Of a DNA stretch of 64,000 bases, positions 15,101 through 48,500 are shown piece by piece. The notes under the pieces were generated by a model, which was not told the DNA's origin, did not search any database, and saw only the letters and a list, made by a program, of their open reading frames with translations. Every line of letters starts with the position of its first letter. Position 1 is the stretch's first letter. Where the stretch lies: assembly GCF_008831285.2 (NCBI RefSeq), contig NC_045145.1, forward strand, positions 17,748,040 through 17,812,039, in the 5' to 3' direction. The DNA comes from Nymphaea colorata. Taxonomy: Eukaryota > Streptophyta > Magnoliopsida > Nymphaeales > Nymphaeaceae. Position numbers and translations under genes: made by a program.

Positions 15101-16569
15101 CAGATCGGTATATCCAAGTTAATAAACTGCAACGTCACCACAAAAAAAGAACTGTCAATTAACAGTTCTCAACCATTGCATTGTCAATACGTAATCAGAG
15201 TTAATAAATTGCACGACCACCACAGAAAGAACTAGTGCAACAGAGTGACGGAGTCCAAAAAGAGAGCTAGTTTTCCTCTCACAAGAACAGAGAAACACCA
15301 ATATCATGTTCCAACGTAGATGAACAATTAAAAGGTGAGGATTGATTATGCTGAGAACCTTCTACTTTGATTTGATGTATAAAGTATAAACCCAAGAACC
15401 TGATTCCAAATCTATGAAAAGCAAGAAACAATAAGAGACAACACCACCACAAGTGAAGTGGCTTCAACCAAAGTTCATTGAGAAGATGTAGAGCATTCTT
15501 GCTGAGATGAATTTGTCAACTTCATTTAAAAGCAAAATATGGTCCCTGCAACTACTTTACCAAAAATATGTATGTTAAACACTATGATTATGTTACATAC
15601 TTTATGAGAAGTATTTTGATCTTTAAGCAACCACAGAAGGCAATCGATAGCCATGTATTGCCAATCATCCGAAGAGCGAGCAATGTTGCAAAGAGCCTCG
15701 ATAATTCCTGGAAGACTAGCCACTTGTAACCTGCCATGCTTGTGGTGACATATTGTTCTTAATAAACCAATACCAGCCGGTGAATTTTCATTTACTAGTC
15801 CTCCCCACATGCCTGGGAGCTTGACAAGAAATTCAGGTTTGCAAACGAAAGGGATAAACTCTGCCTTGAAGGCAAAGCAATTAATGAGCTGAAGAGACCA
15901 ACACTGCAATTGACTAGCCCATTCTTCAGCTTTCCTAGACTCCATTTCAACTCCACCCATTCCACGTGTCAGCAAATCACAGTGATAACTAAGCCGTCTG
16001 TCCACAAATTGATAGAAATGAGAATAAACAATTTCAAGTGAACCCATTGCCAGCTGAATGGAGAGCTCAAGAACTTCACTATGGTTGGCAACAGCAGGAA
16101 AAGTAGAGGCATATGTGGCCAAATGTCCGAGAGCTCTAACCGCCACCCTTTGCTCCACCCAAGTCAATCGACCTCTTAAAAGCTCCACAAGAGGTGGGAT
16201 AACCCCTGAACGGACCGCACGTTCTGCAAATTCCTCCATATTCATTGTGTATGATCCGATGATATGTGCTGCATAATAGGGTATATAGATATTCTGGTCA
16301 TGGGAAAGCCAGCGCCTATTCTTCAAGCCCTTCCATATAAGAGAAGACATGCATTCAAATATTCCCAACTCAATGAACTCAGGATCATTGGGGTGTGCCA
16401 TGGCAGTATTCCAGAGACCACTGATTGGGAGAACCTGGCCATCATCATCTTGAGTAGGAAGTTCTCTGAAGAACTTCAATACACTTGATCTACGTTTACT
16501 AGGATTTCCTTCTTTCATAACGCAGAAGAAGCATCCAGGATATGGGCAATCAGGAGGAACTGTACCCAT
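12186..16569 (-). CDS. ARM-repeat/TPR (UNC45-like) protein, three coding exons, 626 aa
   Basis: Exons in transcription order: 16569-15601, 14526-13662 and a predicted 47 nt last exon 12232-12186. The N-terminus MGTVPPDCPYPGCFFCVM is that of a conserved plant ARM/TPR protein. Residues about 60-370 form armadillo-like helices; residues about 408-513 hold TPR units (EGNSLFSSGDI, SNRAQCHLLMQQ, WRRAQAYDMLG). An acidic Asp/Glu-rich tail follows. The combination suggests a chaperone-associated or scaffold role in the cytosol, but no biochemical function is established that I can cite. The main exon could read on to a TAA at 13648-13650, but AAG|GTAGTA at 13662/13661 is a good donor and the distant exon adds, in phase, an ending DLRLGYKVHVAEEEK that resembles the C-terminal tail I recall for homologues. 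A 5' UTR intron (donor 17269, acceptor before 16621) is also likely. Confidence 0.88.
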
Positions 16570-16596
16570 TGCTGACTGTCCAAAACAGGAATTGCT

Positions 16597-16621
16597 ACGA
16601 AATTGGTTCTTCAAGAATCAT
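16597..16621 (-). promoter_or_regulatory. Eight-codon upstream ORF in the ARM/TPR 5' leader
   Basis: Immediately after the predicted 5' UTR splice acceptor (CTTGTTCAG|ATG) there is an ATG at 16621-16619 opening a frame MILEEPIS followed by TAG, ending before the main start at 16569. It could modestly reduce translation of the main frame. Its use depends on the 5' UTR intron being spliced as predicted. Confidence 0.45.
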
Positions 16622-25775: not shown

Positions 25776-27308
25776 ATGGGTGTTGTGCGCTTCTTCCATT
25801 TCATATTCTTCTTTGCCCTCCTCTTGCTGCCTTCAGAGTCCAGTGCTCAGACCATACGTGGTAGCACAAATGGGGTTGTTGTGATGGGCGGTCGTCGGAT
25901 CTTGGGCTTCGAAGAAGTTCCTGATTCGGAGGGTAAGCAGGACGAAGCCGAAGCGTCAGATTCGATCTCTCTTCCAGTGAAGAAGAAGAAGCAGGACAAA
26001 GAGGTGTCTGATTCTAGCTCTGTGTTGGAGAAGAAGAAGAAGAAGGAGAAAGAAGCACCTGATTCTAGCTTCCTTTTGGAGAAGAAGGCGCCCAAAGAGG
26101 CCCTTGGTTCTGGCTCTGTTTTAAAGAAGAAGACCAAGGAGGCGCTTGATTCTGACTCTGTTTCGGAGAAGAAGGTGAAGCTAGAGCAGCCCATCATCAA
26201 ACAAGTGGTGAAAGTGAAGAAACCCACAAATGGTTCCACTACCACATCAGCTGCAGCAACGCTCCTGAAGAAGAAGACTCCTTTGAACCACACGAATGCT
26301 CAGTCGAAACCGGTGCCTCCTACCGGCCTGAAACCCATCAAGAAGCAAGCAGATCTACTGAAAACAGTGGAGTCCAAGAACAAGACGAAAGTAGAAAAGA
26401 AAACTCTCGGCGCTGCATCTGACGCCGGCGACTTCCAAATAATAAAGAAGAAGCCTGACGCCTCCATCTCCACCTCAACTTCCTCTGCAACTCCCACCAA
26501 GAAAAAAGCCCCAGCCACACCGGAGAAGAAGAAGGACCCAAAGGAGAAAGAGACGCAGATTAAGCTGAAGAAGACGAAGGAAGTGTATAGCGATGACGAG
26601 GACGATCTGATACAGGATTTCCGGGGCCTCCCCTACAAATTGCAGGAGACTTTCATCCCGGACCTCGAGAGGATCTCCACGACCTCCAAGGCCTATCTAA
26701 ACAGAGCCAACCGTGAAATGGTGGAGGGGTTTAAGCCGCTGGTAGGCCACAGATACGCTCCAGTCGTCGCCACCGTGACTTCCTATATCTTCCTCCTCCT
26801 CCCACTCCTTCTGGTGTCGCTTCTCTTCCACCAGATCCGCGAGTACCTCTCCCTTCAGAGGCTGCTCTTCTTCATTCATGGCTACCTCGGCGCCTACTTC
26901 ACCGTCCTCACCCTGACCTTCGCCTTCACTAGAGTTGAACCGCTTCGCTTCTTCTACCAATATTCGATGACGAGCTACATAAACATGCAGGTGATGCAGA
27001 CTCTGTTCTATGTGATGTATCTGCTGATGCTGGTACTGTACATGGTGGTTCAGTTCTCCACTGCCACAGGGCTGTGGGTTCGGGTCTCGGCGCTGGTGCA
27101 GACGATGGTAGGGGCGGTGGTCGGTCTCCATTACTACTCGGCCGTCTTCCACAACGCCCTCGCTCACAAGCCACCCAGGGCGAGCTGGAGGAGCCACGCC
27201 GTCTACGCCTTCTGCTTCCTTATGCTCAGTCTTCTGGCGAAGCGGGTGATTGACAGGAGCAAGAAGGCATACCACCATGAATCAGGAGAAGGGGACAAGC
27301 AAAATTGA
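25776..27308 (+). CDS. Plant multipass membrane protein with Lys-rich repeats, intronless, 510 aa
   Basis: A single exon from ATG 25776 to TGA 27308. Residues 1-25 look like a cleavable signal peptide with a phenylalanine/leucine-rich core ending near SSA-Q. Residues about 50-270 are low complexity, with repeated units of Ser/Asp followed by Lys runs (forms such as DSSSVLEKKKKKEKE). An acidic patch (SDDEDD, about residues 268-274) precedes a conserved-looking block (DFRGLPYKLQETFIPDLERI). Hydrophobic segments sit at about 329-352, 362-385, 402-426, 432-458 and 473-492, followed by a short basic tail. It resembles uncharacterised plant membrane proteins; I do not recognise a named family and assign no function. 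Location is probably the ER or another secretory membrane. The upstream in-frame extension lacks an ATG, so this start is preferred. Confidence 0.85.
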   Translation: MGVVRFFHFIFFFALLLLPSESSAQTIRGSTNGVVVMGGRRILGFEEVPDSEGKQDEAEASDSISLPVKKKKQDKEVSDSSSVLEKKKKKEKEAPDSSFLLEKKAPKEALGSGSVLKKKTKEALDSDSVSEKKVKLEQPIIKQVVKVKKPTNGSTTTSAAATLLKKKTPLNHTNAQSKPVPPTGLKPIKKQADLLKTVESKNKTKVEKKTLGAASDAGDFQIIKKKPDASISTSTSSATPTKKKAPATPEKKKDPKEKETQIKLKKTKEVYSDDEDDLIQDFRGLPYKLQETFIPDLERISTTSKAYLNRANREMVEGFKPLVGHRYAPVVATVTSYIFLLLPLLLVSLLFHQIREYLSLQRLLFFIHGYLGAYFTVLTLTFAFTRVEPLRFFYQYSMTSYINMQVMQTLFYVMYLLMLVLYMVVQFSTATGLWVRVSALVQTMVGAVVGLHYYSAVFHNALAHKPPRASWRSHAVYAFCFLMLSLLAKRVIDRSKKAYHHESGEGDKQN

Positions 27309-29072
27309 TGCCCCTGGCTACCTGCAGCAGCAGCACCACCACCGCCATCTACTCTGTTTTTTTTGCCTTAATTGATTTTTATTTATTTTTCTCTGCAACC
27401 ATGGCTATAGAGATCGATGGTTGATTGAAGCTGAAAAGGTAAGCTGTATTTTTCTTGAATCTTTGTTCTTTTGGGGGATAATTTAGTATACAGGAATAAA
27501 GAGGGTGCGTCGGTGATGTATTTTGAGCTTTCGCTTTCTACTCTGTGATCCCAGAGGTGCAGATTTATAAAGAACAGAAGAGAGAGAATGGTTATCAGGG
27601 AAAGCTATTTAATGTACTTTGCAAGGAAAGTTGGTGAGAAAGAAAAAAATGAAGAAGAAAACCAATGTTTGTTGCTCTGTTATATCTTCTCTCTCTTGAC
27701 AAAAAGAAAAAAGAAACATGTAATCGATTCAGGAAGCATCAAAGATTTTCATGGCAACGGCGACGTGATTACAGACAGATGGTAGTCTTGCTTGTGGCTC
27801 GTCCAAGTTGCTGACCCTCTCTCCTTGAATCGTGCCTGATGGTCAGGCCCATTGACCAGGAACCTCATGGAGCTGACTGCCGACATTAGTCGGTCCATTT
27901 TCCGCCACCGCAGGGTCGTACACTCCACATTCATATTAATTGCACTCAACCAAGCAGGCGTTGCGCATGTGATTATCTCGGTTTTTCCTTTTATTTGTCT
28001 TTTAACTTTTTCATAAATCCAACTCTATAGATGTGATGTATGAATATTTTTGAATCATTGGAGCCCATATGCATTAAGTTCGTAGGCTAAAAAGCAAACG
28101 TGCCTTTTCAGAAGACAGATGGACATGGTTGATTTATAGCGCATTCATCGAATTGGATTATAACAATTTAGATTCTGATACCAACTTTATAATTATACAT
28201 ATATAAACTATCATCTGTAAAGCATATAACTTGTTTTTTGTAATGTAATGAAACAAACTACTGTCGATATTTCGCAAGAAAAATTTCTTTTCTCAGTGAC
28301 AGTAAGCACCAGTCGTCAAGCCTTTCCATGACAAATGCATGATAAGGCTCAGACAATAGAATGACACGATTAGAGCTTCATTCTTAGTTCGATGGAATTG
28401 TAGGGTTTCCTGTTTCAAAAGCATCACATTTGATTTGTAACTATAAATTCTGGGTGCAAACTGGCCGTTAATTGCAGGTTCGGAAAAAGCCAACACTTTC
28501 ATTCAATCTTGTCTGTTTTGGGTGTTTTGAGGTGCCGCCTTAGTTGCACTTTAATTTGTGTATCGGTAACTCCTTTTTGTAGCATAAAAGGTTAACACCA
28601 ATACCACTCAAAATAAGAATGGATTACCGACCAACCTTCATCAGAAGCCGTTGTGTTAATCTCAATAGAAACACAAATTGACTGTTAATTAAGATCAGCT
28701 GTTGTGCCAAACCCATTAAGAATACAAAAATGGCCGTTAATTAAGATCAGCTATATACAATGGAGGTGGGATTCAGTACATAAAGATCAATGGTGGAGCT
28801 GGAAAGCGATTAATGTTGGGCAATGGCGAGCCTGTGCTGCCTGGTTCATCCGTGGCCCGCCATTTCTGAGTCAACGAGAACTGCAACTGCTGCTGGGAAG
28901 ATAAAAGGAGGAACTTGATGATGAGGAATCGGGCAGCCCAATTTTTGTGTTTTCTGGTCGCTTTCCGCATGCCGGAGAGGAGTGGAAACCGGCCCCCCTT
29001 TTGGTGACTTGGGCGGACCTTGACCGGACTTACTGAAACCAAAACCAAGGTCACCCGACTGCCTTCTCCCAA

Positions 29073-29240
29073 CACGCTCTTGCTTTGATAGACATACATA
29101 CACACATATATATAAATATACACGCTCTTGTTTTGATAGACATACATACACACATATATATAAATATACATGCTCTTGTTTTGGTAGTACAAAAATACAA
29201 TATATATATATATATATATAAAGAGAGAGAGAGAAAGAGA
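29073..29240. repeat. 48 bp tandem repeat plus (TA)n/(GA)n tract
   Basis: The unit 'cacgctcttg(c/t)tttgatagacatacatac...ataaatata' occurs at 29073 and 29121 and begins again at 29169, an exact 48 bp period. A (TA)n then (GA)n tract follows to about 29240. Confidence 0.85.
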
Positions 29241-31199
29241 TAGAAGCCGTGAAATGGACGTGGGGTTGAGACTTAGGATGAGGCTGAGCGAAAGTAGGGA
29301 GAGGTGATGGTGGCGTCGGTGCTGAAGTCAAAAGCTGTTGGTTTGGCGTCATTCTTTGTTATGGTCGGCCTGGTTAGGCTTGTGTAGACCGATATATTGG
29401 CTTCTCCCCAAACAACAATAAAAGAAGAGGAGATATGATGGGGGTTTGGTTGAGCCGCTCATGGGCAGACACTCAAGGCTATGAACTCTTTGTGCTACAA
29501 AAGGGTGTCACTAGTATGCGAATTGAAAAAGAATGACATATGATCGGTAGAGTAAATGAGATTCAAATGACATATGATCGGTAGAGTCGTTCTTAAATAA
29601 ACATATGATTGGATTCTATTCAGTTTTTTCAGTTTGCAATATTATAATAAAGCGGTTCTGACCCAGTTGCGTATTTAAAAGTTGGACTTGGATTCGGTTG
29701 TGAAATTAAAAGTTGAGAGATTCAAATCGAATTCGAGTCGACCATGCTCATAAAATTGCCAACTCTTTGGAAAATGATAAATTTGAAAGCATCAGGAAAA
29801 CGTTGGAGTTTGGTATGCCATTAACGCAGGGCCCGGCAACCGGAGGCCTGTGATCTGTCCCGACCTGTCCCGTCATAAAGAGGCCAAAAGGGAGCATTTT
29901 CAATGGCGATTGGTTCTCTGAACTACTGCGACCTGCGATTGTCCAGGACTTGTACTCTGCTGAGAGCACCATGGTTCCTAGAAGAAATAGATGAGTTTCT
30001 AGTACATGGATGTCCCACTCTCACCGCAAAAGACGCCAGAAATTTTGTCACCAAAGTGCTGTGGAATGTGAAGAGATGGCCCCTTCTGCTTTGTGCGTAT
30101 AAGATCTCAATCGTACCAAAGCCAAAAAGATATTGCACCACCACATGATAAGCCTCGTCCGCCCACAATTGACAAGAACAGCAGATAGCTGCGCATTGAT
30201 GGACTCGTACCTACTCTAAACTTTAGGTGAGACCAAATTCATATCATACATTAAATGCCCATGTTGTAAAATGAAGGGAAAGAACATAAGCAGATGTGAA
30301 ATTGATTCCTATGAAAGTCGAGCCCGAGATTAGTCGTTTGGGAGGAAAGAAATCACAATAACAGGAAATGGTGAGATTACAAAGGTATTCAGGGATCAAG
30401 TAACTTCATACTTTCAACTCCCATCTGAATGAATTACAGTCACGGTCGGATCCGGCGACTCAAGATGCCACCGATTCGTTTTGGTGTTCCGGTTCACCGC
30501 CTTCGACGATGCTTATCTCCATGATTAGGGATGTAAATGGATTGGATTCAAAACAGGTAAACACGTGGGAATCGAGAATCCCATGCGCATTAAGGGAAAA
30601 AAAATTGCAAAGCCCTTCATCCTAGATCTGATATACTTTGTCGGCAGCTTCTTGAGCCAATAAACTGTTTTTCAACCAGCATGAACAATCATAGACAAAT
30701 GAATGGCATGATCTTTCATCCTTGTCAATTTGACATGTTTGGCTTGGAGTCACCTACCTCTTTAATGGTTGTTTCTTCATCATCTCATCCGTAACTGTCA
30801 CAGTTAGTACCACATTCATTTTGGAGGAATCATTTTTTAATCCAACCTTGATATCGAGCCTTTCTCTCTATTCAATTATGATTGGCCCACTCGGTTGGTG
30901 CATTTAGCTCCTTTATGTTCTTTCACATTCTTTTCCAAATCAAAAACTGCATTTTGTGTCAAAAAATGTACAGACATAACAAAATTTTCTATCTGCATGT
31001 AAATGGGTAAGTGAGCTTCAATTAAATGGCATGTGCTGGTAGGGGTCATTAGATCATCAAATTTATGGTGATGGTTATACTTCTAAGCAGATCAAACATC
31101 AGTTGCTTTCAGAATGAATTTGAGAGTGTAAGAGTTTCTTTGTTTTTTCAAACCTTACATATTAGCCTCTAGGTGGAGGGGTTTTGGTAGAGCTGAGAA

Positions 31200-31440
31200 C
31201 CATTGTGGGCAAACTCACTGGACTGGCTCAGGAATCAAGTCAAGGTTGGCCTGACACACCGACCCCTGACTCAGCCCAACTCGGCCCGACTCACCCGATT
31301 TAACTGCAATGATTTACATTATGGTTATTTTAAAACTCGACCAAATCGAGTCAATTTGCTGAGTCAAAGAGTCAACTCGGTGCCATCTGCCGATTTGAGT
31401 CAGAGTTTGCCAACTATGCTGAGTACATGGTCCACCTGCT
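31200..31440. repeat. Degenerate actcg/gagtc-rich repeat
   Basis: Dense recurrence of 'gactca', 'actcgg' and 'gagtcaa' words without a fixed period. It is similar in character to the longer tract at 43000-43530 and the one at 59100-59430. No coding potential is seen. Confidence 0.45.
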
Positions 31441-31852
31441 AAGCCATTAATTCACCACTGTGAGGAAGTTGATAACCGACACTATTTGTGGCGTACATGA
31501 ACCGCCATGACCACCTATTCTCTACTTCGTGGTATTGCCTTCTATGTTAATTCTTCATGGCAAGTGAGCACACGTTCTCGATCTATGGAATTGGTATCTT
31601 TTAACTGCAATCTCCCGGATTAAGTTTGAATTTGCGGGTGGATGAGCAGATTCATGATCAGCTGGATCACTTTTAGAAAGAGATCGATTTACGATCTCCA
31701 CCAAACAAGTTTTACGCGAGAGGTACCACCATGGGCGTGGCACTCTGCATTAGAAATAGTTGGAAGATGCTACAGCACAACTTACAGATCTCCAATATTA
31801 CTTGTATATTATTCATGGTTCACTTATTTGCAATATCCAAGTGGCCTACCAT

Positions 31853-32035
31853 GACCATTTCAGGAAGCAGCGGCAGAGATACATAGAGGCTGGTATGGGC
31901 GGTTGACCATTTCAGGAAGCAGCGGCAGAGATACATAGAGGCTGGTATGGGCGGTTGACCATTTCAGGAAGCAGCGGCAGAGATACATAGAGGCAGGCAG
32001 AGATACATAGAGGCTGGTATGATCTACCGCCCATA
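31853..32035. repeat. 52 bp tandem repeat, about 2.8 copies
   Basis: The unit 'gaccatttcaggaagcagcg...gtatgggcggtt' begins at 31853, 31905 and 31957 with almost no divergence between the first two copies. The third copy has a partial internal duplication of 'ggcagagatacatagag' and ends in 'taccgccca', the reverse complement of tgggcggta. Confidence 0.9.
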
Positions 32036-32874
32036 GCTGCCCAAGATAAATTTCACTGGACTAGCTGATAATCACATTGTGATGACTCAAAATAAAGAAG
32101 CCCACACTAGGTATGAGCTTGTGACTCTCCGCCAAAAGAATCGTAGCTCCGCCACCACCACAAGGCATGACGGGCCACATAAAAGCAGACTGGTCCTCAA
32201 AGCAGGAGTGACTAAAGGCAGATAGCTTAGCATGACAAATGTCAAGAAATGAAGGGGCCCACATTTCACATCCGATCCTTAGAATCACAAATGCATCGCC
32301 AAACTTGTTTATAAGCAGCTGTAAGAACCGATTGCACAGTCATTCCGCGCAAATCGCTGTCAGAACCAAGTAGAAAATTCATTTCCTGGTGTACGATTTA
32401 AGGAGAAAAGCACCAATTTAAAGTGCAACAGAAATTTTAATTTCTTTGGCTTCCAGTATACTTTATTATGATAATAGGGTGCCGTAGACATCCATATTAA
32501 GAGTACCGATATAGGCAATCAGACGGTTCAAATGAAGCAGCTTTCCACGTGTAGAAAGTGCTCTGAATGACAAGGGCCTTCATGCACCATGTACACAGAA
32601 ACATGATCATGCAAACACATAAATAGGCATACACACATTTCTGTAACTTGACGTGACAATGGGTGATTATTTGGTATGTATTGGATAGGGAAGGTTGGCA
32701 GCATATTGTAGGAATCATCAAACTTCCCAGTCAAGAAGGTCGCCAGGAATAGACCACCTCACCTTGAAGTAGCCGATTGTGCATTGCACACTTGCGTAAA
32801 AAGGAAAGAAAAACCAATACTTCCAGCATCGCCAAGAATAGGAAGCACCCTGCAAAATCAGAGGAATACAAGCA

Positions 32875-32984
32875 GCACACTCCCTACGCAGGTGTTACCC
32901 TGTTCAGGTTCAAAGGGACTTTCTCAGCCTGAACCAGTCATTACTCCCATGGGTAGGGAAAGACAGTCCAAGCACCCCTGGTGC
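32875..32984 (-). ncRNA. TPP riboswitch aptamer, distal copy, in the THIC 3' UTR
   Basis: Read on the minus strand this segment has every conserved THI-box element in order: GCACC-AGGGGUGC, an extended P3 arm, CUGAGA, CCCUUUGAACCUGA, and CCUGCGUAGGGAGUGUGC. P3 closes as GCUUGGAC/GUUCAGGC (8 bp including G-U pairs), with an inner UCCC/GGGA hairpin of the kind seen in plant THIC aptamers. It differs from the proximal copy by two bases in about 56 on the 3' side, both flanking the UAA of loop L5. It lies about 1.29 kb past the THIC stop and about 320 nt past the proximal aptamer. It probably binds thiamine pyrophosphate, but its role is inferred. Confidence 0.9.
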
Positions 32985-33306
32985 CTGCTCATATAAGCAA
33001 TTTGCAATGAAGCAACTAAACAACAATACAACACCTCCTGATGAAGCAAGCACAGCATTTATGTCACTGCAAGAAGCAAAATTCTTGCATTGACATCTAT
33101 TGTAGCAGGAGGCACCGCAATAGATTCTTAGAATTCAACAAGAAAAGGGAAAGAGAAAAAAAAAGGAGATAAAGTAGGGAGCTAGGGCCAGGAAATGATC
33201 TCCCTTTTCAGGCTTATCATTCTGAGATTGATCCACATATCCTTTAGCAAAATCTTGCTCGAAACCACCAGAACATACAGCACGATCCTGTGACAGAACG
33301 AAAAAT

Positions 33307-33413
33307 GCACACTCCCTACGCAGGTATTATCCTGTTCAGGTTCAAAGGGACTTTCTCAGCCTGCACTCCCAACCAACAGGATGGGAAAGCGCAGATGCAG
33401 GCACCCCTGGTGC
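33307..33413 (-). ncRNA. TPP riboswitch aptamer, proximal copy, in the THIC 3' UTR
   Basis: On the minus strand: GCACC-AGGGGUGC, P3 (GCCUGCA/UGCAGGC, 7 perfect pairs) with an inner UCCCA/UGGGA hairpin, then CUGAGA, CCCUUUGAACCUGA, L5 AUAAUA and CCUGCGUAGGGAGUGUGC. This matches the eukaryotic TPP aptamer. In plants the element sits in the THIC 3' UTR and controls alternative splicing and 3' end formation, so that high TPP gives longer, less stable transcripts. It lies about 860 nt downstream of the coding stop and 217 nt downstream of the candidate regulated 5' splice site at 33630. Confidence 0.96.
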
Positions 33414-33620
33414 ATTTAGTATTTAGCAAACTGAAGTGGATAGCAAGAAGATTATTTTATTCCACAAGGATAACGACTCTACTATCTGAACAACTCTACT
33501 ATCTGAACAAAGACAACAGATGGATTGATTTTATTTTCCACATTGTAACTTACCCACAACCAGATAAGAACAAAAGGGACCATTCAGACATGGAACTCAA
33601 TCCGATCCTTCAAGATTACG

Positions 33621-33640
33621 AATAGTTACCTGCAAGGGCA
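33621..33640 (-). promoter_or_regulatory. Candidate TPP-regulated 5' splice site in the THIC 3' UTR
   Basis: Minus-strand sequence CCCTTGCAG|GTAACTATT has a good donor with the junction at 33630/33629. Its GCAGGUA is exactly complementary to UACCUGC in the proximal aptamer (P5 region), the kind of pairing reported for plant THIC where the unliganded aptamer masks the donor. The pyrimidine-rich stretch before CAG means the same site could instead act as the acceptor of a preceding 3' UTR intron. Confidence 0.6.
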
Positions 33641-33764
33641 ATGCAACAAAATGATCATATAACAAAATAATGATATATTTAATGGAGGAAACAAGAGAAT
33701 TTCATTTTCATTCCCATTGCTTAATTTTAACCATGAACAACAGAGCAGATAAATAATTTTAAGA

Positions 33765-34040
33765 GACTCAAATTCTAGCAGGTTTACTAGATCACTTCTG
33801 GCCTTAATAATAAATTATGAACATCTTGCAGCAAAGCTGAAGCTTAGAACAGAAGCCCAGAATCACCTAGTTAAATGATGGCAATTCAAACTCAGATGTT
33901 AGCAGGTTTACTAACACTTCTGGCCCTAATAGTTATGCAGCACCTTGCAGTTGCAGCACAGCTGAAGCTCAGCTTCAGTTTTGAGAAGGAGCTTCATGGG
34001 AACAGAAGTCCAGAATGGCGACTCAAACTCAGACTGTTTC
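33765..34040. repeat. Tandem duplication of about 120 bp in the THIC 3' UTR
   Basis: Copy 1 at about 33765-33880 and copy 2 at about 33885-34010, sharing 'tagcaggtttacta', 'cacttctggcc', 'cttgcag', 'agctgaagct' and 'aacagaag(c/t)ccagaat'; a partial third start ('actcaaactcaga') follows. It lies between the THIC stop and the candidate regulated splice donor. Confidence 0.75.
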
Positions 34041-34272
34041 AAGCATGTGTCAACGGAAGGCAAATGAAAATCAAGTCCCTAATTTTAAATGCACGTGTTT
34101 TTTCTTGATATTTTGCATTATGGCAATGTAATTGTACCATTATTGCAAATATCATGGTACTTCATTAATAGTCTGAATATATCAAGATAATTTAGCTTAA
34201 ATTGGATAGTTTATGGTGTTTTCTTCAAGAGAAAAAATATTTTTGATATCTATTGTGTAGATACACCAACCT

Positions 34273-37253
<2,981 letters not shown>

Positions 37254-40200
37254 TCATATAACTGTTAGCTGCTACTCTTAATGAAACGATGACAGTTATC
37301 ACTATCAATGATCAATCTAAGCACTAAAATGAAATACAATAAGAATTCGATTTAGCTACTATAGCTGGATACTAAATTGCAGCCTTGCAACAAGAACTTT
37401 TTATAGAAAATGTTGGTCCTAACTCCAGGCCTCACGTTAGGCCCCAGGTCCTTTTATACAAGTGCTACGACAGGCATATAAACAAAACAGGAAAATTGGT
37501 GTTTTTATTTCAATCTTGCAGATGTGTTCATCATATCTTATTTAGTAAAAAACATGCACTAGATTACTTAATTTTGACACCCAAACTGACTTTACAAAGA
37601 GGCCTAAAATCAACGGCCTATTGTTTGTTGTCATCTTTTATCGTTAAACAGTACATAATAGAATCCTCAACTTAGGGGTTGTTTAATATTTCAGTTCATA
37701 ATCATTTTCACAGTGGAACCGCAACACTTACAACAGAGACCTCAGATACTTGTCATCAGAACTAAATTTCACGTCTCTGAGTTAGGAAGGGTCCATCGAT
37801 AAGCAACCACCATTCCCCAACTTTCTTAAACACTCAACCAAGATGGAGCGAGACCATGAAAAAGAACATCTAAAACTGCAAAACAGTCCACCACGTACTC
37901 CTATAACAATCGAAAGAAACTAAATGAAGAAGGCAATCATAGCAGCCCAGAAAGGCAGCGACGCCGAAGTTCACTGAACAGTCCTTGACACGACAAGAAC
38001 TAGTAAGATGGATGGAAGAGTACCAGAAGACGCCGGTAGCGGATGCGAAACTTCTTAACTCTCAAATTCCCTCAAGACAGACGAAGGCGGACTCTGTGCC
38101 TCCCTCCACTTCTTCGTGCTCTGCCCTCTTGGACTCACGCTGGGCTATGGAGTTACAATCGAAGAGACGCCCCTCGATTCGGATCAGGTGATAGCACGAG
38201 AAAGAGTAAACACCCAGCGCGCCAATTTAAGAAGACCATGTGAGGCTCGCGAGTCGTCAAGTGGAACCCCCAAGTTGGCGCCACAAAAATATCAAACGGT
38301 TGGACAAAAGGATCCAACCAAATCCTGTAAGGAGACAGATGAAAAGCCAAAGCCTAAGCCTAGGAAGAGGAAAAAGTAAAGAGAGGTTGCAGCAAAGATG
38401 GAAAAGAGAATCACGCCTTTCCATGAACGGCGTAAATGCTGCAACAGGTGTCATGTATCTTCAGTTTTTTCTTTTGTGCTGTAATGGTTTTCTTCCTTTG
38501 TCTTTTTAACTCGCGGACTTTTGGGGCCTTGGTAGCTCGAGTTTAGCTGAAGAACATTGCTTGTCTAAAGTCCTCTACCTAACCATTACATTGTATTGGG
38601 ATTAAACTAGCTAGTGTTCCACAGGACATGCACTAGGGATTGTAGATGATCTCCTTGGCAATGGTGTATAGCAACTTCGTGTATTCTCACTATACTTTGT
38701 ATTGAGAAAGTGCACCATCAAATGACTTTATGTATATTTTTATTTTGATTCTTATAGGAAGTGAATTTAAAACCAACTTAAGTTTATTGTTCTCTCTCTT
38801 TGTATATGTGTGTGTAGAGAGAAAGAGAGAGAGAGAGAGAGAGAAGTAAAAGTGATATCCAGTTATTCTACTTAAAACCCATAACAGCCCGAGTGTTACT
38901 ATTGATTTTCTTCAACTTAAGGGCGTTGTTGAAGTTTCAACCTGCTACCCAAATAAATACAAGTTTACAATCTTCTTTAAGGCCTATATGAACAAGAAAC
39001 TAGATAATAAACGTAAATGACCATAGATGAAACGTTGGTAAGTACTTTTCATCAAACTATCTAATCCTGCTGTGATACTCCATTGGTTACATTCTGGGTG
39101 ACGGTTAATCACATGGACTAAAATAAAACTATATCATCTCTTAATTATAAACGGCAGATCCTGCGATACTAGCAAACATTGCCAAAATTCAATTTTAAGA
39201 GATGAACCTCGTTCAAGGATAAGAATCAAGTTATGGCGATCAAATTAGAAAACTATTGCATTCATTAAAAAATTGGCTTTTATCTTTTCAGAAAGTTTTT
39301 TGTCTTTTAGGATGTCTAACAAGAAAGGCGAGGGAGGACCTTATCGATGGAAACGTCATGGGGCCTTCTAGGCATTCTTGAAGTGCGATATTTTTGCTTC
39401 GTTCTGGCCCGCACCTCCTCCTTTATGTTACATCATATCCTTCAACCTTTGTCCATTTTCTCAAAATATCAACGACGATGAGAGGGAGACTCGTAAGTAG
39501 GGTTGCAAGTGGTCTAAATTTGGTTTCAAGTTCTTATCAGTGTTTAATATATCAGTCTTATTTTAATCCAATTTTGTTGTAATTTTTTGTCTTCAGATCC
39601 GATCCATAACTGCATGTTAAAATCTTTTCTATTTTAATTAATTTTTTCATTTTTTTTGGCAATTTGCAATTCATTCAGACAATTTGGTGAATTGAACAGT
39701 TTGTCCGTTGTCCATTCTCAGCCCTTGATCACCATGAAATCATGATCGTGGGACAGTATCGGAACAGGAAATAATATGTAAATAAAATAAATTATGTGGG
39801 CCCGTGTTGGCAACTGCCCACACAATTAGTCCACAACTAGGTCCCACACTGCCCATCATCCTCCTCCGAAAATATCAAGTCTCCAAACTGATTGCAACAC
39901 CTCATGTGACAGCAGACAAATAAATATCGAGTTTAAATTTACTGAAATCTAAACAAGTATACATCGATCGTGACTTGAATGGATCTTTGAAAGTATGGAG
40001 CTCATCTTGCATCATGGCTTAGGCTCTTAGCGATCCAGTGGCGGAGGCACATGTGGGTTTGTGTGGGCAATCACCTGTACATAATTGCTTAATAACTAGT
40101 ACCCCATAGTTAAAAAATTTTTGGCTCTGCCCCTGCACATCGAGCTCATCTGACCTCAATTTGGCTCATCAGTCCTTTGCTCAATAAGCTAACTGACCAA

Positions 40201-42110
40201 TTAATCAATAAGCAGCAAATGTAAGGATGATGAATTATCATGCTTTGAAGGTCAGGTGGGGAGAGTAAGCGAGTAGTCCTAGAACCATGTTTCTTGTCCA
40301 CTTTCAATTGATGACTACCTAATGCATGTAATTGTTCCCCTAAACCCCATTGAGCCGGGGTTCGGTTCTAGGCAGCCAGTGGTGGAGTCAGAAATTTAAG
40401 CAGCTACGCGAGGCTAAGAATATCCCGATATGATTTTGGTTATGGAAGTATATATGAAAGACATGATTATAGTTGGAAGGAGAAAGAAAAAAAAAAGACA
40501 AGAAAAGAGAATATTCAGAAAAAAGATGGAGTTTGTTTTCACACATTGATAAGGGATGTATGGATTACCGAGAAGAGAGAAGCCGTAAAGAATATAAAGT
40601 CTCCTTTTATATGGAAATAGAAGAAAGGATGTTTTTTGTTTTAAGAGATACTTTCTACCATAGTTTTTTTTACAGACTCTCTTTCGATAATAGTCGAAAC
40701 AGTTGTCTCAAGGAACATGGTGTAGCTGGTCAGGTCGGTGGACCAGTGAGGATCCGATCTCAGTTTAATTCTCATCGGTGCTACTCCTCTAAACCACAAA
40801 AGTAACAAATGCTACCTCTCATTGAAGAGGGTAAGTTTACTCAAGTGCCCATGCAACTCTCGGCTCACAGACATAAAAAGAAAAGAGGGTTGGGGATGGT
40901 GGGTGTGGTGGAGGAAAAGAGGGGAAGGAAAGGGGGTTCGTTTTCCCACTCAGTTTGGACAATAATTTCAAAGAAAATTTTCTAATTCAGTTCCAAATAT
41001 TGTTGGCAACTCTGGGCCCCAAGTTTAAGTACACCAATCTACTCAATATTTATGTTTCCTTTTCAAAGATCTAGCGAAAATGGAAGAAGATTTCACTGAT
41101 GTTACATTAACATGACTAGAAATTTTCAACTCAAAAGACAATGGGAAATGTAAATGCTTATTTGACCGTTGTCAGTAAAATTTGCGGTTAAGAAAGATAT
41201 CTAAAAAGCATATGATTCCATTTCTTTTATTATATCCAAAATGAACCTTAAAACAACATTTCTCAAAAGTAAAGATAAATTGACTTGTTGAACTGTCATA
41301 TCCTTTTCTTATTATATTGTGGAGATAGATACGATCGCACAATTATATTTCATTTAATGAGTTTACCTTTTGATTACATATATATAAAGATTCAATAGCA
41401 CAAATGGATCCGATCCAGTCTTATTACCAAGACTTGTACATGTGTAAGTAGTTTAGCGTATCCTTAGTTGCCCTTTCTTCTTTTTTAATTTAAATATGAA
41501 TCCAGTAAATGCTTTCGGGTTGGGGATCAACTTGCCTCGTTAAACTCCGTTTGGATCCGATTAGCATCCTCACCACTGCCAGACCAACCGCCCAACTGAA
41601 AAGAAGAAACGAAGACTACAGTTCCCAACAAAGGGCACATTCACGAAATCTCAAATCTCGAAACTCGAAAGAATCGAGACTTTTTTTCACAGCATTTTCA
41701 AAACCCCGTGTGAGAATATATCTGACACTTTCTTGATAGTCACAGTTTGGAATAAATTATGTGTTTTCTAGAAGGCAAAAGTTTGGTGCTTCAGCGATGA
41801 TATTCTTGAACCTGTAAAAATTTTCACAACTTGACAGTTTATGCCAAATATATAAGCATATTCTATTTTAGCCGTAACAATAATTCGGGTAAGCGGGAGG
41901 GAATTCCATGGCTCCAGTGAACGGCCAAAGTATCTAATTATTTTCCCTTTACTTTGGGTTGTGTTGCGATCGAATGAATTTATGGTTACTCAATCTAACT
42001 TGAGAATAACATCCGCCACCTTTCGTAATATAGAGAAGTAGCACTCACAAGAATTGAATTGATGACTGAACTCTCACCAGTCCACCAGCTCAACTAGTTA
42101 CACTACACTT

Positions 42111-42210
42111 CGTGGAGATTAATCATCATAATAATGTTCGCAAATGCGTGGAGATTAATCATCATAATAATGTTCGCAAATGCCTCGATAATAATGTTCT
42201 CAAATGCCTG
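42111..42210. repeat. 36 bp tandem repeat
   Basis: 'cgtggagattaatcatcata' plus 16 further bases is repeated exactly at 42111 and 42147; a partial third copy ('ataataatgttctcaaatgc') follows. Confidence 0.85.
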
Positions 42211-42914
42211 GAGAGAATTGAATGTGATTTTTCTCGTTCTTACGGGATAACTTTTCGTGTGACAAAAGGAGATTCTCCAAATAATGTTTGGGCCTCAACA
42301 TTCATCACAATGCCAATTACAGAGAAGCTCCAATATAACTCTAACTATATACAGAGAGAACCCTTAGTATTCATTAATTATTTACAAAATTCCAGAAAAA
42401 AAAGAGAGAAAAGTCTAACTCCCACCTAGTGATATAGCGCAAACTTGGTCAAGTTTGAAAGTTCTTTTTATTGATCTAGATTTTGCGTGGCCGTTGATTT
42501 TCAAGTGGCCGGATTTTTTTTTTTTAGTTGGAATTTGCCAATCTTAATGAATGATTCTCATGATCAAGCCAATCATATTCGATCAGATCATCGACATAAT
42601 TATCAGATTTGATCAAAACAAGTTTTGAACCACATATTTTAAGTAGTATGCGGTTGCGAAGGTTACTGCGCATACTTTTCGCTGGATCTTAATGAGTGGC
42701 CAGGCCTTTTGCTACGTTGCAAGGACTCAGCGAGTTTAATTTAGTCGATGCATTGCGCAATTACGGAAGAGATTAGAATATGCGTGCATGTAAAGTATTA
42801 TACTGCAAGGCCCGCACTGATGTGCAGAAATATTAACATAGTCCTCAAGTAGCTAAAACTTGAGGACCCATGTTTTTGTCATCAGCTTAATATTTTTGTT
42901 AAAAATGCATCGTG

Positions 42915-42915
<1 letters not shown>

Positions 42916-42979
<64 letters not shown>

Positions 42980-43530
42980 GGGGTGAACACAAGCGAGTCG
43001 AGTCCAAGTTCAGTTAGCTCAAGCTCAGCGCGACTAATGAAACCTCAAACTCGAGAATAATTCGACGGAAGCAACTCGAGCTCGACTCGACAGTTACGTG
43101 TTAAGCTCGAGCTCGAGCTCAACTCGATTAAGACTTGACAAACTCGTTTGAATAGATTTGACATTCATCGTTACGTGTTGAGCTCGAGCTTGACTCAATG
43201 AAGACTCGACAACTCGTTTGAATGGAATTGATATTCATCGTTACGTGTATGTGTTGAGCTCGAGCTCGAGCTCGACTCGATTAAGGATCGACAAACTCGT
43301 AAACTTGTTTGAATATATCAACTTGATTAAGGCTTGACAAACTCGATTAAGGCTCGAGCTCGACTCAGCAGTTGCGTGTTGAGCTCAAACTCAACTTGAT
43401 CATTTGAACGAGTCGACTCATGAACTCGAACTCGACTTGTCAAGAAAATAACTCGGCTTGAAAGCCTCGAACTCGTTCACTAGCTGAGTTTTAATGACTC
43501 GAGTAGCTCGACTCATTGTTAACCCTTGCA
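42916..43530. repeat. (TA)n tract followed by a degenerate tcgag/gctcga-rich repeat
   Basis: A 60 bp TA tract, then about 500 bp dominated by gagctcgagctcga, actcga and 'acaaactcg' words in irregular multiples, with 'gttacgtgttgagctcgagc' recurring several times. Such tcgag-rich arrays occur in many plant genomes, usually as parts of non-autonomous elements. No coding capacity is seen. Confidence 0.75.
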
Positions 43531-45558
43531 TGTATAGGTATATATTGAATTCAATTCAAAAAATATCGGTAAAAAACCATTTACAGAAGCATTAGTAACA
43601 ATTTATGGTGTAGTACAGTTTATGATATTTTTAATGAAGTTCATGGTGTTTTTAACAATTTAAAATATTTAACCGTCTCAGACAACATCGGGATCGAGCT
43701 GATACATATTTACATACATAACTGGTAGATCATAGATATTTAGATTAAAGAGTTAAGAAATAATGACAGTTCTTGTTCTTCATTTATAAATTGGTGGGTA
43801 AAAAAAAAAAAAAACAAAGAGAAGAAGATGATAGAGCGTTTTTGTCATTTAGTATTAGTTCAAACTTATTTCTCTTTGTTTTTCTTTCAACCACCAATAT
43901 GTAACAAATCAAGTGCTGAGATCGTTTTTTATGTATACATACTCACGGATACTTTAAGTACATTGGTGGCATTGGCAATCCAAATTGGATATATATTTAG
44001 CAGGTCAGTTAAGCATTTTAATTGTTGTTTAGGTCATCAAAATCCAAACTTTAGATAGCTTCATTTATGGGTCTAGGTTTCTACTTTTTTTTAAAAAAGA
44101 TGGCCAATATAAACAGTAACCATCCATCCTTCTTTCTCTCTCATTTTTTTTATAAAAGTGGAAACAAAAATCCGGTCCCTTAATTGTGAATCAAAATTCA
44201 GTTGGAAGTAGATGATCCTTTTGGTCATAATCCTCAACCTTTTCTACCTTTATGGTGGGTGCTATATATATATATATATATATGTTCTGAGCTAGTTTTG
44301 AGAAAAAAATATGGAAAAGAGAGAACAAGCAATTGAGAGAGGGAAAAAAGGATTTTGAAAAACCTGTCCGATTTTAGGAATGTATATAAAATTACATCCT
44401 TCTCTTGAAAATATGATAATCCTAAGATTCTCTCCCTCTCCTTGCCAAGGCTTTAATGTTCCAATAGTGACCTTAAATTATGCATATACGTTATCCAGTT
44501 TTTCCAGCATTTCTAAAAGTTTTTATGAGTCCGATTGTATGAATGACTTACACATATCAATAACCGGATACAAGCGAAGGGAAATTCATCATATTTTATA
44601 AACGCTTTGAAGTTCACATATTAAACTTTTTTTTTTTGCTAAAAAAATGTTTGATACACATTATCATGATTTTGTTTATGTATACATTTTTGGACCTTCT
44701 TATAGAGAGCAGGCAGCACAATACATTTGTAAATAACATAATATTAAAATCTTTCATACAGGAGGGTTGAGGGGGACAGAATCTACGCAAAGTCGGGCAC
44801 TACACGTTCCAAATAGAAATTCGCGATATACCGAGAGGATGAAGGAACATTATCCTTGTGCTTGCCTCCTTCAACTACTCTTTTATTGCAGTACATAATT
44901 TTTTTTATATCTTTTTCGGGGATCGTCTTGGTCTGCCCAACGCTCCTGAAGTATTAAATCCAACGAACTCTTGGCCTTCTTTATAATGCAGCGTCCATGG
45001 TGGTGCAGATTTTGGAAGAGCAGTTGAGTCGAGAGAGAGAGAGGTGTGGTTCTCGGGGGACGGAGAGTTTGACGTGGTCGTTGAAGTTGCGGAAGGCGAG
45101 GCACGAAAGGCGGGGGCTGCACCCGTGCATGAGGGAAGGAGGAAGAGGAGAGCGCTTAGGGAGAGAGACTCTGTTGTTGCCGGGAAGATGAAACCAACAA
45201 AATAATAAAACGGAACGCAGAAATAGGAGGTGGGTTTTCTTCGGGAGTTTCAGAATTTCTCCTCTCTCTCTCTCCCCCCTCCTCTCTCTGCGAAGGAAGC
45301 TTCGGTTCTCCCCCGCAATAACGCCGTGTTGTGTCCGGCTTCTGCTGCTGCTAGATTCTACCATCCCTCACAATCTCCACTTGCACATGTCGGGTGATTG
45401 GCAGTTGCAGGAGATTAAGAAGACGGAGTCCTCGATCCCTCTCTTTCCTGTAGATCGTCTCCGTCTCCCAGTCTTAATTAGCTCCTCCCGTCCACTACGG
45501 ATGAGAACCAAATGAATGAGCGCTACCGTTCGTGCGTCTTAGACTTCGTTTTGCCAGA

Positions 45559-48500
45559 ATGACGAAGTCAAGTAATGGCTCGGATTCGTCTGTGAAGGGT
45601 GATAAGCAGAAGAAGAAGGTACGATTCTTTTCTTTCTCCATTTCTGTAGTCCTGTTATATGCTTTTGCATGGTACAAAGAAACGGAGGAACTATAAAAAT
45701 GGTGGTGAGAAATGCTACTTCTGAACCCTTGTACAGTCCTTCATTCCGAAGATCTTCGCTATGAAATGGCGGAACGGGAGAAAATCCGACGAAGATGTTT
45801 TCGCAAGAAGGGAGGCAGCCAGAGGTATTGGTCAAAATTTCTCTACTCTCTCTCTCTCTCTCCTTCTCTCTTGATCGAAAACAAGTTTGATGATGGGGAT
45901 TCGTTTATTTATTAGAAATATCTTTTTTTCTACAGATATAGAAATAAGGTTGGCAGCAACCAGGAGAAGCATGCTGGACGCGTCTCCCGTGATCAGAAAA
46001 AGCTTTTCCGGTAATCTCGAACGCCAAATTCATTGTGGTATATGCTAGAAGTTGTCACTAAGAACTCGCCATTGTTAACCATTCTGAACTTGAACATCAC
46101 GAAATCTTCTTGGTGGTATAGATCCATTGAGGGCATCAAGATTAAAACAAGGGGAAGGAAACCGAGAAGAACTCTCTTCCTTTCCTTCAACCACCGACCA
46201 GCATCCGTTTTTGCGTTAAAAATCTTATGTGGAAACTCCCGGACAATGGTGAATCAACTGAAACTGCCATCACCATAATGCGCCATAATAACATTCAAAT
46301 GCCAATCGAGGCCAAAAAGTCTAAAGTTTCTTTCTTCTTCTTCTCTCTCTCTCTTTTCCCTTTGTCCGGGCTTTCAGTTACATCACATGCCGCACTTTTC
46401 AACCTTTGAAATGAAGAGGAATCGACATTGTTCAACTTCCTTACGTTAACCTTCCAGATTCCTCCATCATGATGCATGGCTCTTGGGTTTTGCTTTCCTT
46501 CCTCGAGATTCAACAGCATATTTAAATTTTAAGCGAGACAGTCTTGGTTTGGTGGTGCAGAAAGGCACACGAATCCGAGAATCGAAGGGCTAAATTTGAG
46601 CAACTACGTCCCCCCGGCCTCCCAGTTGGTCGACATTCAGGAATTCAGGTAAACATCCCTTCATCCATAAGAAAAACCTCTCTTCCTTCACGCACATATA
46701 GAATAGCACCACTTGGAGAAGACCCACATTCCCACTAAGTCCATATGCAGAAAAAAGAGAGAGAGAGAGAAAGTCTAGGCCGGTTTACCTAGAATACATG
46801 GTAGTGGCTTTATTTTTTTCCTTTTTCTTCTTCTTGTAATTGAAGGGGAGTTGGGCAGATACCTAAAAACCCTTATAATTTTCTTGCCTTCAGTTTTCAG
46901 CATCATCCTATGTTTCTATGTATGTCAAAAAGGGTACATTATCTTTTGGCCGACCTGAGTTTCTGTTGCCCAAGAAAAGTGGAAAAATGAATTCAGAAAA
47001 CATGAAAAATGAAAATATGAAGTGCGAATACAGCTGATAGCTTGCGGACAAATGAAAAGAATCTCTTGCCTGAAACATGGCCTACCCATTAGGTCCGCTC
47101 AGTGCGAAGCAAAGTGCACTTTTGGTCGAGCACAAAGAATCCCCTCGTACCTCTATTTTCTACTTCTTACCATTAATCACATTAATTATATTTGCTTATT
47201 ATTAGTCTATGACATCTACAATAATGTTCTTCCAAGTAAGGAGTTGGGGGAAAGGGGATAAAGATAGAAAGGGAAGAAGCCCCTAGAGTTTGCAAGGTTA
47301 CATGCTCAAAAGGGTAGGAATAGAATACTAGATATTACTAGAAAACTTAGAAGCTTGGGCCAATTTTTACTCTAGGATTAAAGAGCTCTAGTTCAAGAAA
47401 AATAGTTTCATTAGGTTTAGGTCACTTGCTATCGGTTTTGGTTAATTAATGTCCATTTTTGTTGGCACTTTTCACTCTCTCTATGAGTCTCCTTATGCTT
47501 TTCTCCTGAATAAATGGACAGGATATTCGTGGCAACGTGGAACGTAGGAGGGAAATCTCCACACAACGGTCTGAACCTTGAAGATTTCCTCCAGGTGGAA
47601 GGCTCCTCTGATATCTACGTCTTAGGGTAAATTTTTTACTTTCTAATTCCATGATTTTGTGAAGATGTGGACGAGAGTACTGGTGCAGAAATGCTGCTCT
47701 TGTGAAGTCATGTTAGTTCATAAAAGGTTTAGGAACTTGGTTGTGGTGGTGTTTGTCCAGGTTTCAGGAAATAGTCCCTCTAAATGCAGGAAACGTGCTG
47801 GTCATCGAGGACAACGAGCCCGCTGCGAAGTGGCTTTCTCTCATCGGCCAGGCGCTCAACAAGAGCGCGTTTGTAAGGCAAAGGCCAGCCGAGGACGACT
47901 GCAGCCAGCGCTCGCGGCACCACTCTCAGGAACAATGGAGCTTTGCTTCTTCTGCTGCCTCCACGCCCGCACCAGCTGAGCCAAACCACGAAGGCAGCTG
48001 CTGCAACGGCTCCGCCCATGGTCCGGCCAACCCCAAGAACGCGAACCCCAAAGAGTTTTCCAAGACCCCGAGCGGCGGGCTGCCCTTCTTCCAGAAGCCT
48101 TCCCTCAAGGTGTTGTCAAAGTACTTCAGGGTGGTGGACGGCGCGCAGCTCAAGGCCTGCAACTGCCCGCCCTCTGCGTCGTCGGATAAGAGGACGTCGG
48201 AGATCGGCGATCTGATCCAGAAGGTGGAGTCGTGCTCCGTCTGTTATGGCGACCACAACTCCAGGGACCATGACGACGACGACTGCCACTCGCAGTTGGC
48301 CGGCGACATGCCCGCCGGTCCCAATCAGCTGAGCTATTACCTGATCGCCAGCAAGCAGATGGTGGGCATATTTCTGTCTGTCTGGGTGAGAAGCGAGCTG
48401 GTGCCGCACATTGGTCACCTCCGCCTGTCTTGCGTTGGTCGCGGGATCATGGGATGCCTGGGTAATAAGGTAACTAGCTGATTCGCCCTTTCATTATATG

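Follow-up and report, generated by a model that had tools for sequence, protein, structure and literature searches.

Plant THIC is usually described with one TPP aptamer, and the locus considered here raises the question of whether feedback on this gene may involve two sensors. TPP is the only ligand with known eukaryotic riboswitches according to PMC12371167, and a natural pair of aptamers maintained by selection would provide a ready-made experiment on how aptamers are combined in the control of splicing in eukaryotes. Such a pair also bears on the question of evolutionary tuning of the level at which vitamin B1 feedback sets in.

The plant THIC riboswitch has been described in Arabidopsis, tomato and cassava (Wachter 2007 and Bocobza 2007, as cited in PMC10226581, PMC9264592 and PMC5853225). 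According to PMC2258182, part of P4-P5 of the aptamer pairs with a 5' splice site; the accounts given in PMC10226581 and PMC9264592 state that TPP frees this site, and that splicing then leads to a long, unstable mRNA. In the design set out in PMC9264592 a processing site lies between the 5' splice site and the aptamer, and PMC5853225 reports that in most plants an intron follows immediately after the THIC stop codon.

Two complete TPP aptamers behind an intact THIC gene

The window, that is the whole stretch of 64,000 nt analysed here (C8:17748040-17812039 of the 408-Mb assembly), was scanned with cmscan against 4227 Rfam families. Two matches to the TPP family RF00059 exceeded its gathering threshold of 54.3 bits, and no other match to any of the 4227 families reached a gathering score in the window. 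Aptamer 1, which is proximal to THIC, lies at 33418-33295 on the minus strand (72.5 bits, E = 2.4e-12), and the distal aptamer 2 lies at 32989-32863 on the same strand (64.2 bits, E = 2.7e-10). Both matches are full length (model positions 1-105) and contain the conserved blocks of the RF00059 model, and both are located on the THIC coding strand, 3' of the THIC stop codon. Two complete TPP aptamers are therefore present in one THIC 3' region, as the original prediction had claimed from the letters of the DNA; the covariance search of the window returned two segments over threshold, not one, and the predicted spacing of 432 nt was recovered exactly when measured from landmark to landmark. A permissive scan of positions 27000-47000 listed no third TPP aptamer. 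The two aptamers are presumably co-transcribed and so carried on the same transcript.

The gene upstream of the aptamers is intact. The THIC coding region (37202-34273, minus strand) consists of four exons, placed by eye at GT-AG sites (37202-36889, 36674-36547, 35908-35082 and 34956-34273), which encode 650 amino acids and end in a TGA stop codon; when joined and translated the exons contain no internal stop. The predicted protein carries the Pfam domain PF01964 (ThiC_Rad_SAM), and its best PDB match is the plant phosphomethylpyrimidine synthase 4s25 (E = 0), with 4n7q matching as well. A genome search showed this locus to be the sole full-length THIC. A remnant of a second THIC was observed at C9:21039715-21039996; it corresponds to residues 1-94, encoded by exon 1, at 66% identity and contains two stop codons. 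Elsewhere in the window, minus-strand ORFs at 13651-16617 gave a TPR (BSK1-like) match under the cut-off and a weak armadillo-repeat match, and a plus-strand ORF at 47717-48478 gave a weak match to Exo_endo_phos2, likewise under the cut-off. Across the 408-Mb genome, no other TPP match over the cut-off was found among the 49 of 11825 first-look candidates that were scored.

Comparison of the two aptamers with one another revealed a 57-nt block (CAGG...GTGC, 33363-33307 in aptamer 1 and 32931-32875 in aptamer 2) with only 2 differences, or 3 if the block is shifted by one base, and a 60-nt repeat spanning the aptamer cores has 95% identity. In contrast, the alignment of the flanks on either side is not clearly above that of shuffled sequences (in the lowest count, 48 of 500 dinucleotide shuffles reach the score). 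The striking feature originally noted at this locus, diverged flanks around a near-identical core, is thus borne out. Similarity between the P3 arms is weak and test-dependent: 15 of 500 base shuffles reach it, and with dinucleotide shuffles the counts are 42 and 122 of 500. As for the P3 hairpins themselves, shuffles were at least equally stable in 18 of 500 cases for aptamer 1 and in 91 of 500 for aptamer 2, a count that lends no support to the stability of the latter hairpin.

Flank homology was considered as a means of delimiting the duplicated unit and was rejected: a loose alignment does cross the flanks, with a score that is not clearly above shuffles. The idea that the spacer is a transposon was likewise set aside, as a 1361-nt query matched only C8 and C6 (in a search that skips very common words).

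A decayed copy of the tandem and the case for constraint

When the 60-nt core was used as a query, a third place in the genome was found at C6:17723814-17723862, with 80% identity. This match belongs to a disrupted copy of the 3' end of THIC (L005 4876-6027, corresponding to C6 about 17723375-17724526), which comprises some 120 nt of the last THIC exon, with small deletions, followed by 3'UTR sequence, and which is 86% identical to the THIC locus over about 1 kb. The C6 copy contains predicted-intron sequence, and was therefore copied as DNA. Both aptamers are present there in tandem, each in degenerate form (31.2 and 29.6 bits, below the 54.3 cut-off): 11 nt of P5/P4 are deleted from C6 aptamer 1, and conserved letters have gone from several blocks of C6 aptamer 2. 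The copy thereby offers a picture of the tandem RNA after selection has been lost.

Since both aptamers stand in tandem on C6, the arrangement is, on this comparison, older than the C6 copy and not a duplication made in assembly. Indeed, the unalignable flanks and the same tandem order at C6 led to the rejection of an assembly or recent duplication, and an assembly error is very unlikely to be the source of the tandem. At the level of sequence, then, the locus holds two complete aptamers and an intact THIC, and has a decayed relative with the same tandem. Moreover, C6 aptamer 2 has both of the letters that distinguish the two THIC cores, and C6 aptamer 1 retains its own letter at the single distinguishing site left undeleted. 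As these copy-specific letters have been kept on C6, conversion has not wiped out the older differences between the aptamers.

The C6 copy also allowed changes in the cores to be assigned to branches. For this purpose 70 core columns per aptamer were compared, with the other aptamer used for polarising and with no outgroup, and the upstream 3'UTR plus the spacer served as comparator (102 of 806 sites differ between THIC and C6, or 12.7%). In the aptamer 1 core, for which 59 columns are testable (11 being lost to the deletion), there are 0 changes on the THIC branch, and 3 substitutions plus the 11-nt deletion on the C6 branch. In the aptamer 2 core, a conservative cut of 59 columns that ends before the C6 breakpoint gives 0 changes on the THIC branch and 8 on the C6 branch, and all 70 columns give 0 and 17, respectively. 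Summed over the two cores, the C6 branch has accumulated 11 substitutions plus an 11-nt deletion, and the THIC branch 0 changes. If the comparator divergence is split half per branch, an unchanged core on the THIC side has a probability of 0.021 for each aptamer and of 0.00045 for the two jointly, values that assume equal branch rates and a comparator without an outgroup, and from which gene conversion is not formally excluded.

The aptamer 1 57-nt block in the C6 copy displays only 1 substitution at 46 alignable sites, which is below the comparator level, and because of this some period of constraint on the C6 copy, too, may have to be allowed for. Together, the branch contrast with C6 and the contrast between core and flanks support selection on both aptamers, as had been proposed when the tandem was noted, with aptamer 2 providing the clearer case of the two. 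The pair is probably functional in both of its copies.

Predicted folds and candidate splice sites

The two aptamers are closed by different P1 helices. Aptamer 2 has 13-14 P1 pairs in letters of its own, a long extension, and the resulting duplex is predicted at -15.1 kcal/mol as against -8.8 and -7.6 kcal/mol when the arms are swapped with those of aptamer 1. The P1 of aptamer 1 has 8 pairs (-9.4 kcal/mol) and is marginally better than the swapped arms. With native flanks the P1-P5 arrangement is predicted for both THIC aptamers and for neither C6 copy. When aptamer 2 was folded in a slightly shorter cut the minimum-energy structure was not the TPP fold, and its stability was about that of shuffles (z = -0.04). 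As the shorter cut prefers another fold, the long P1 may be needed for aptamer 2 to adopt its structure.

Splice sites in the 3'UTR were scored with a generic matrix built on approximate plant frequencies; on this scale the three assumed coding-intron 5' sites and the one after the stop codon score 7.0-9.5. A first 3'UTR intron is predicted at 34270..33630 (minus strand), beginning at AAG|GTTGGT 2 nt after the TGA with a 5' score of 7.7, and its candidate 3' ends are the AG at 33630 (score 8.1) and the AG at 34173 (score 7.9). Within this predicted intron, at 33766-33972, repeats with a spacing of 124-125 nt represent another local tandem duplication.

The best candidate for a regulated 5' splice site is GCAG|GTAACT (33624..33629, minus strand), which lies 216 nt from aptamer 1 and, with a score of 9.6, is the best of the 96 GU sites of the 3'UTR. 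Sequence complementary to P4/P5 is found on both sides of its GU. When the 96 GU sites (34273-32420, aptamers excluded) were ranked by duplex energy only, 33629 was 1st against the P4/P5 strand of aptamer 1 (-22.1 kcal/mol, 17 pairs) and 3rd against that of aptamer 2 (-20.0 kcal/mol). Among the 1201 scored GT sites of the window its pairing with aptamer 1 is 8th, four of the sites above it being antisense to the aptamers themselves, and the window holds other GCAG|GT sites whose pairing with the P4/P5 strand is equally good. In an ensemble fold of 801 nt, the expected number of pairs formed by 33629 was 0.23 with aptamer 1 and 1.82 with aptamer 2, so that this fold did not favour 33629 as the partner of aptamer 1. 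If the AG at 33630 is taken as the end of the first 3'UTR intron, then 33629 would define a zero-length exon. The junction TTGCAG|GTAACT (33629-33630) combines the region's best 5' splice site with a good 3' splice site, and so has the layout of a recursive splice point with a zero-length exon.

An alternative regulated 5' splice site is GG|GTAAGT (33548..33553, minus strand; score 7.3), with predicted duplexes of -12.4 kcal/mol with aptamer 1 and -18.5 kcal/mol with aptamer 2; it paired with neither aptamer in the 801-nt ensemble fold. Between the candidate 5' sites and aptamer 1, string matching located the poly(A)-signal-like hexamers AAATAA (33536) and AATAAA (33461) on the minus strand (33456..33536). 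A 17-nt unit is present 2.3 times at 33472-33510, and one copy is absent in C6.

Just 3' of aptamer 1 there is a candidate 3' splice site, CTGTCACAG|GATCG (33288..33290, minus strand; score 7.1). Both aptamers also carry an AG at their 5' edge (CACCAG|GGG), which is outside the 22 best-scored AG sites. In Arabidopsis, THIC splices at the AG on the 5' edge of the aptamer.

A probable tandem form of the plant THIC riboswitch and its alternatives

The locus resembles the plant THIC riboswitch, as described in the reports cited above, in its gene, its strand, its place in the 3'UTR and its predicted intron start 2 nt past the stop codon, and also in the 5' site complementary to P4/P5, the intervening poly(A)-like signals and the AG at the 5' edge of the aptamer. 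It differs in that the riboswitch of those accounts has one aptamer, whereas here two complete aptamers lie 432 nt apart, the second with its own long P1 and with a high-scoring 3' splice site just 3' of it. The tandem is most likely a duplicated form of this known splicing riboswitch.

More than one TPP aptamer has been described in other settings. Two are predicted in 5'UTR introns of Saprolegnia NMT1, where duplication is considered plausible and where the authors state that they could not infer the mechanism (PMC5882874). This is likewise a eukaryotic gene with two TPP aptamers; however, it is a different gene, the aptamers are in the 5'UTR and the organism is an oomycete. Tandem TPP riboswitches are found in thiamine operons of Bacillota (PMC12452182), and bacterial tandems are put at <1% of the UTRs regulated by these classes (PMC2258182). 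They too place two aptamers in series on thiamine genes but, in the systems treated there, they act in 5' leaders on transcription or translation platforms, with no splicing. Cassava also has more than one THIC riboswitch per genome, but in the account of PMC5853225 this reflects gene duplication, with two THIC genes carrying one riboswitch each, whereas here a single full gene has both aptamers. In diatoms, predicted TPP aptamers conferred no thiamine regulation according to PMC9544697. A search limited to the open-access literature turned up no description of a plant THIC gene with aptamers in tandem, and to that extent the arrangement is, as originally supposed, unreported.

A mechanism for the pair may be proposed on the pattern of the single-aptamer switch. 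When TPP is scarce, either aptamer would use its P4/P5 strand to pair with the upstream 5' splice site, for which 33629 is the best candidate; with this site masked, a poly(A) site within the intron would be used, giving a short, stable mRNA. Binding of TPP would free the 5' site, and the intron would then be spliced to leave a long, unstable mRNA. Since the P4/P5 strand is near-identical in the two aptamers, one unoccupied aptamer could be enough to mask the site, which would be released only once both had bound TPP. Such a requirement would raise the TPP threshold and sharpen the response slightly. In a model of two independent aptamers of equal Kd, the midpoint is 2.41 Kd and the apparent Hill coefficient is 1.19, so that under these assumptions the tandem would serve more to set a threshold than to make the switch steep. 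The original prediction had allowed for a change in the steepness of feedback; this part of it is weakened to a small gain, and the main modelled effect is the shift in threshold. Taken as a whole, the proposal that an ancestral single switch in the THIC 3'UTR was duplicated long ago, that purifying selection has kept both aptamers, and that they jointly mask one 5' site is judged to be probable, if only just.

The same elements could instead form two independent switches in series, in which aptamer 1 would act on 33629, aptamer 2 would act on an intron of its own running from 33034 to 32850, and transcripts that escape the first switch would meet the second. This reading is considered unlikely. 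It gains from a candidate second 5' splice site, AGGAG|GTGTTG (33029..33034, minus strand), which sits 50 nt upstream of the aptamer-2 block GCACCAGGGG and whose pairing ranks 2nd of the 96 GU sites with aptamer 1 (-20.2 kcal/mol) and 4th with aptamer 2 (-20.0 kcal/mol), and from the candidate 3' splice site GATTTTGCAG|GGTGC (32850..32852, minus strand), directly 3' of aptamer 2, which at 11.1 tops all AG sites scored in 34290-32300. Neither of these sites survives in the decayed C6 copy, where the GT of 33034 has become AT and where the splice-like sites 33629 and 32985 are missing as well. However, 33034 has a weak 5' splice-site score of 4.5, and its pairing, which is 17th (aptamer 1) and 31st (aptamer 2) among the 1201 GT sites of the window, could be due to chance. 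Aptamer 2 has its strongest GU partner at 32791, on its own 3' side (-21.6 kcal/mol), and in the 801-nt ensemble fold the expected number of pairs formed by 33034 is 2.16 with aptamer 1 but 0.00 with aptamer 2. Moreover, the unequal spacing from site to aptamer, 50 nt for 33034 as against 216 nt for 33629, indicates that the platform was not simply duplicated. A further version, in which each aptamer would run its own 3'UTR intron, the second would act on already-spliced transcripts to yield at least three graded mRNA 3' ends, and the whole would be ancient and order-wide, is quite doubtful.

The evidence for constraint bears on two further readings. If only one aptamer regulates THIC, then the other would be a relic, its core likeness arising from gene conversion or chance. 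Tandem copies can convert one another, the score of aptamer 2 is the lower of the two, its predicted fold varies with flank length, and the constraint signal of aptamer 1 alone is small. Against this, the unalignable flanks argue that the time since duplication has not been short, the aptamer-specific letters retained on C6 indicate that conversion has not erased older differences, neither THIC core has changed on its branch while the C6 pair decayed, and aptamer 2 is closed by complementary P1 arms in letters of its own; a relic is accordingly held to be improbable. Far less probable is it that the second core was kept for some other role, such as one in splicing or RNA stability that involves no sensing of TPP. 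Splice-like signals do occur in and around both cores, but the conserved blocks of the TPP model are kept in both aptamers, and a splicing role would need neither a whole TPP core nor the new, matching P1 of aptamer 2. Joint masking of one 5' site by two maintained aptamers is the reading that is preferred here.

At the distal end of the region an AATAAA (32462..32467, minus strand; string match only) could end long transcripts. Just past the THIC 3' end, at 31852-31994, a 52-nt unit is present in 2.8 identical head-to-tail copies.
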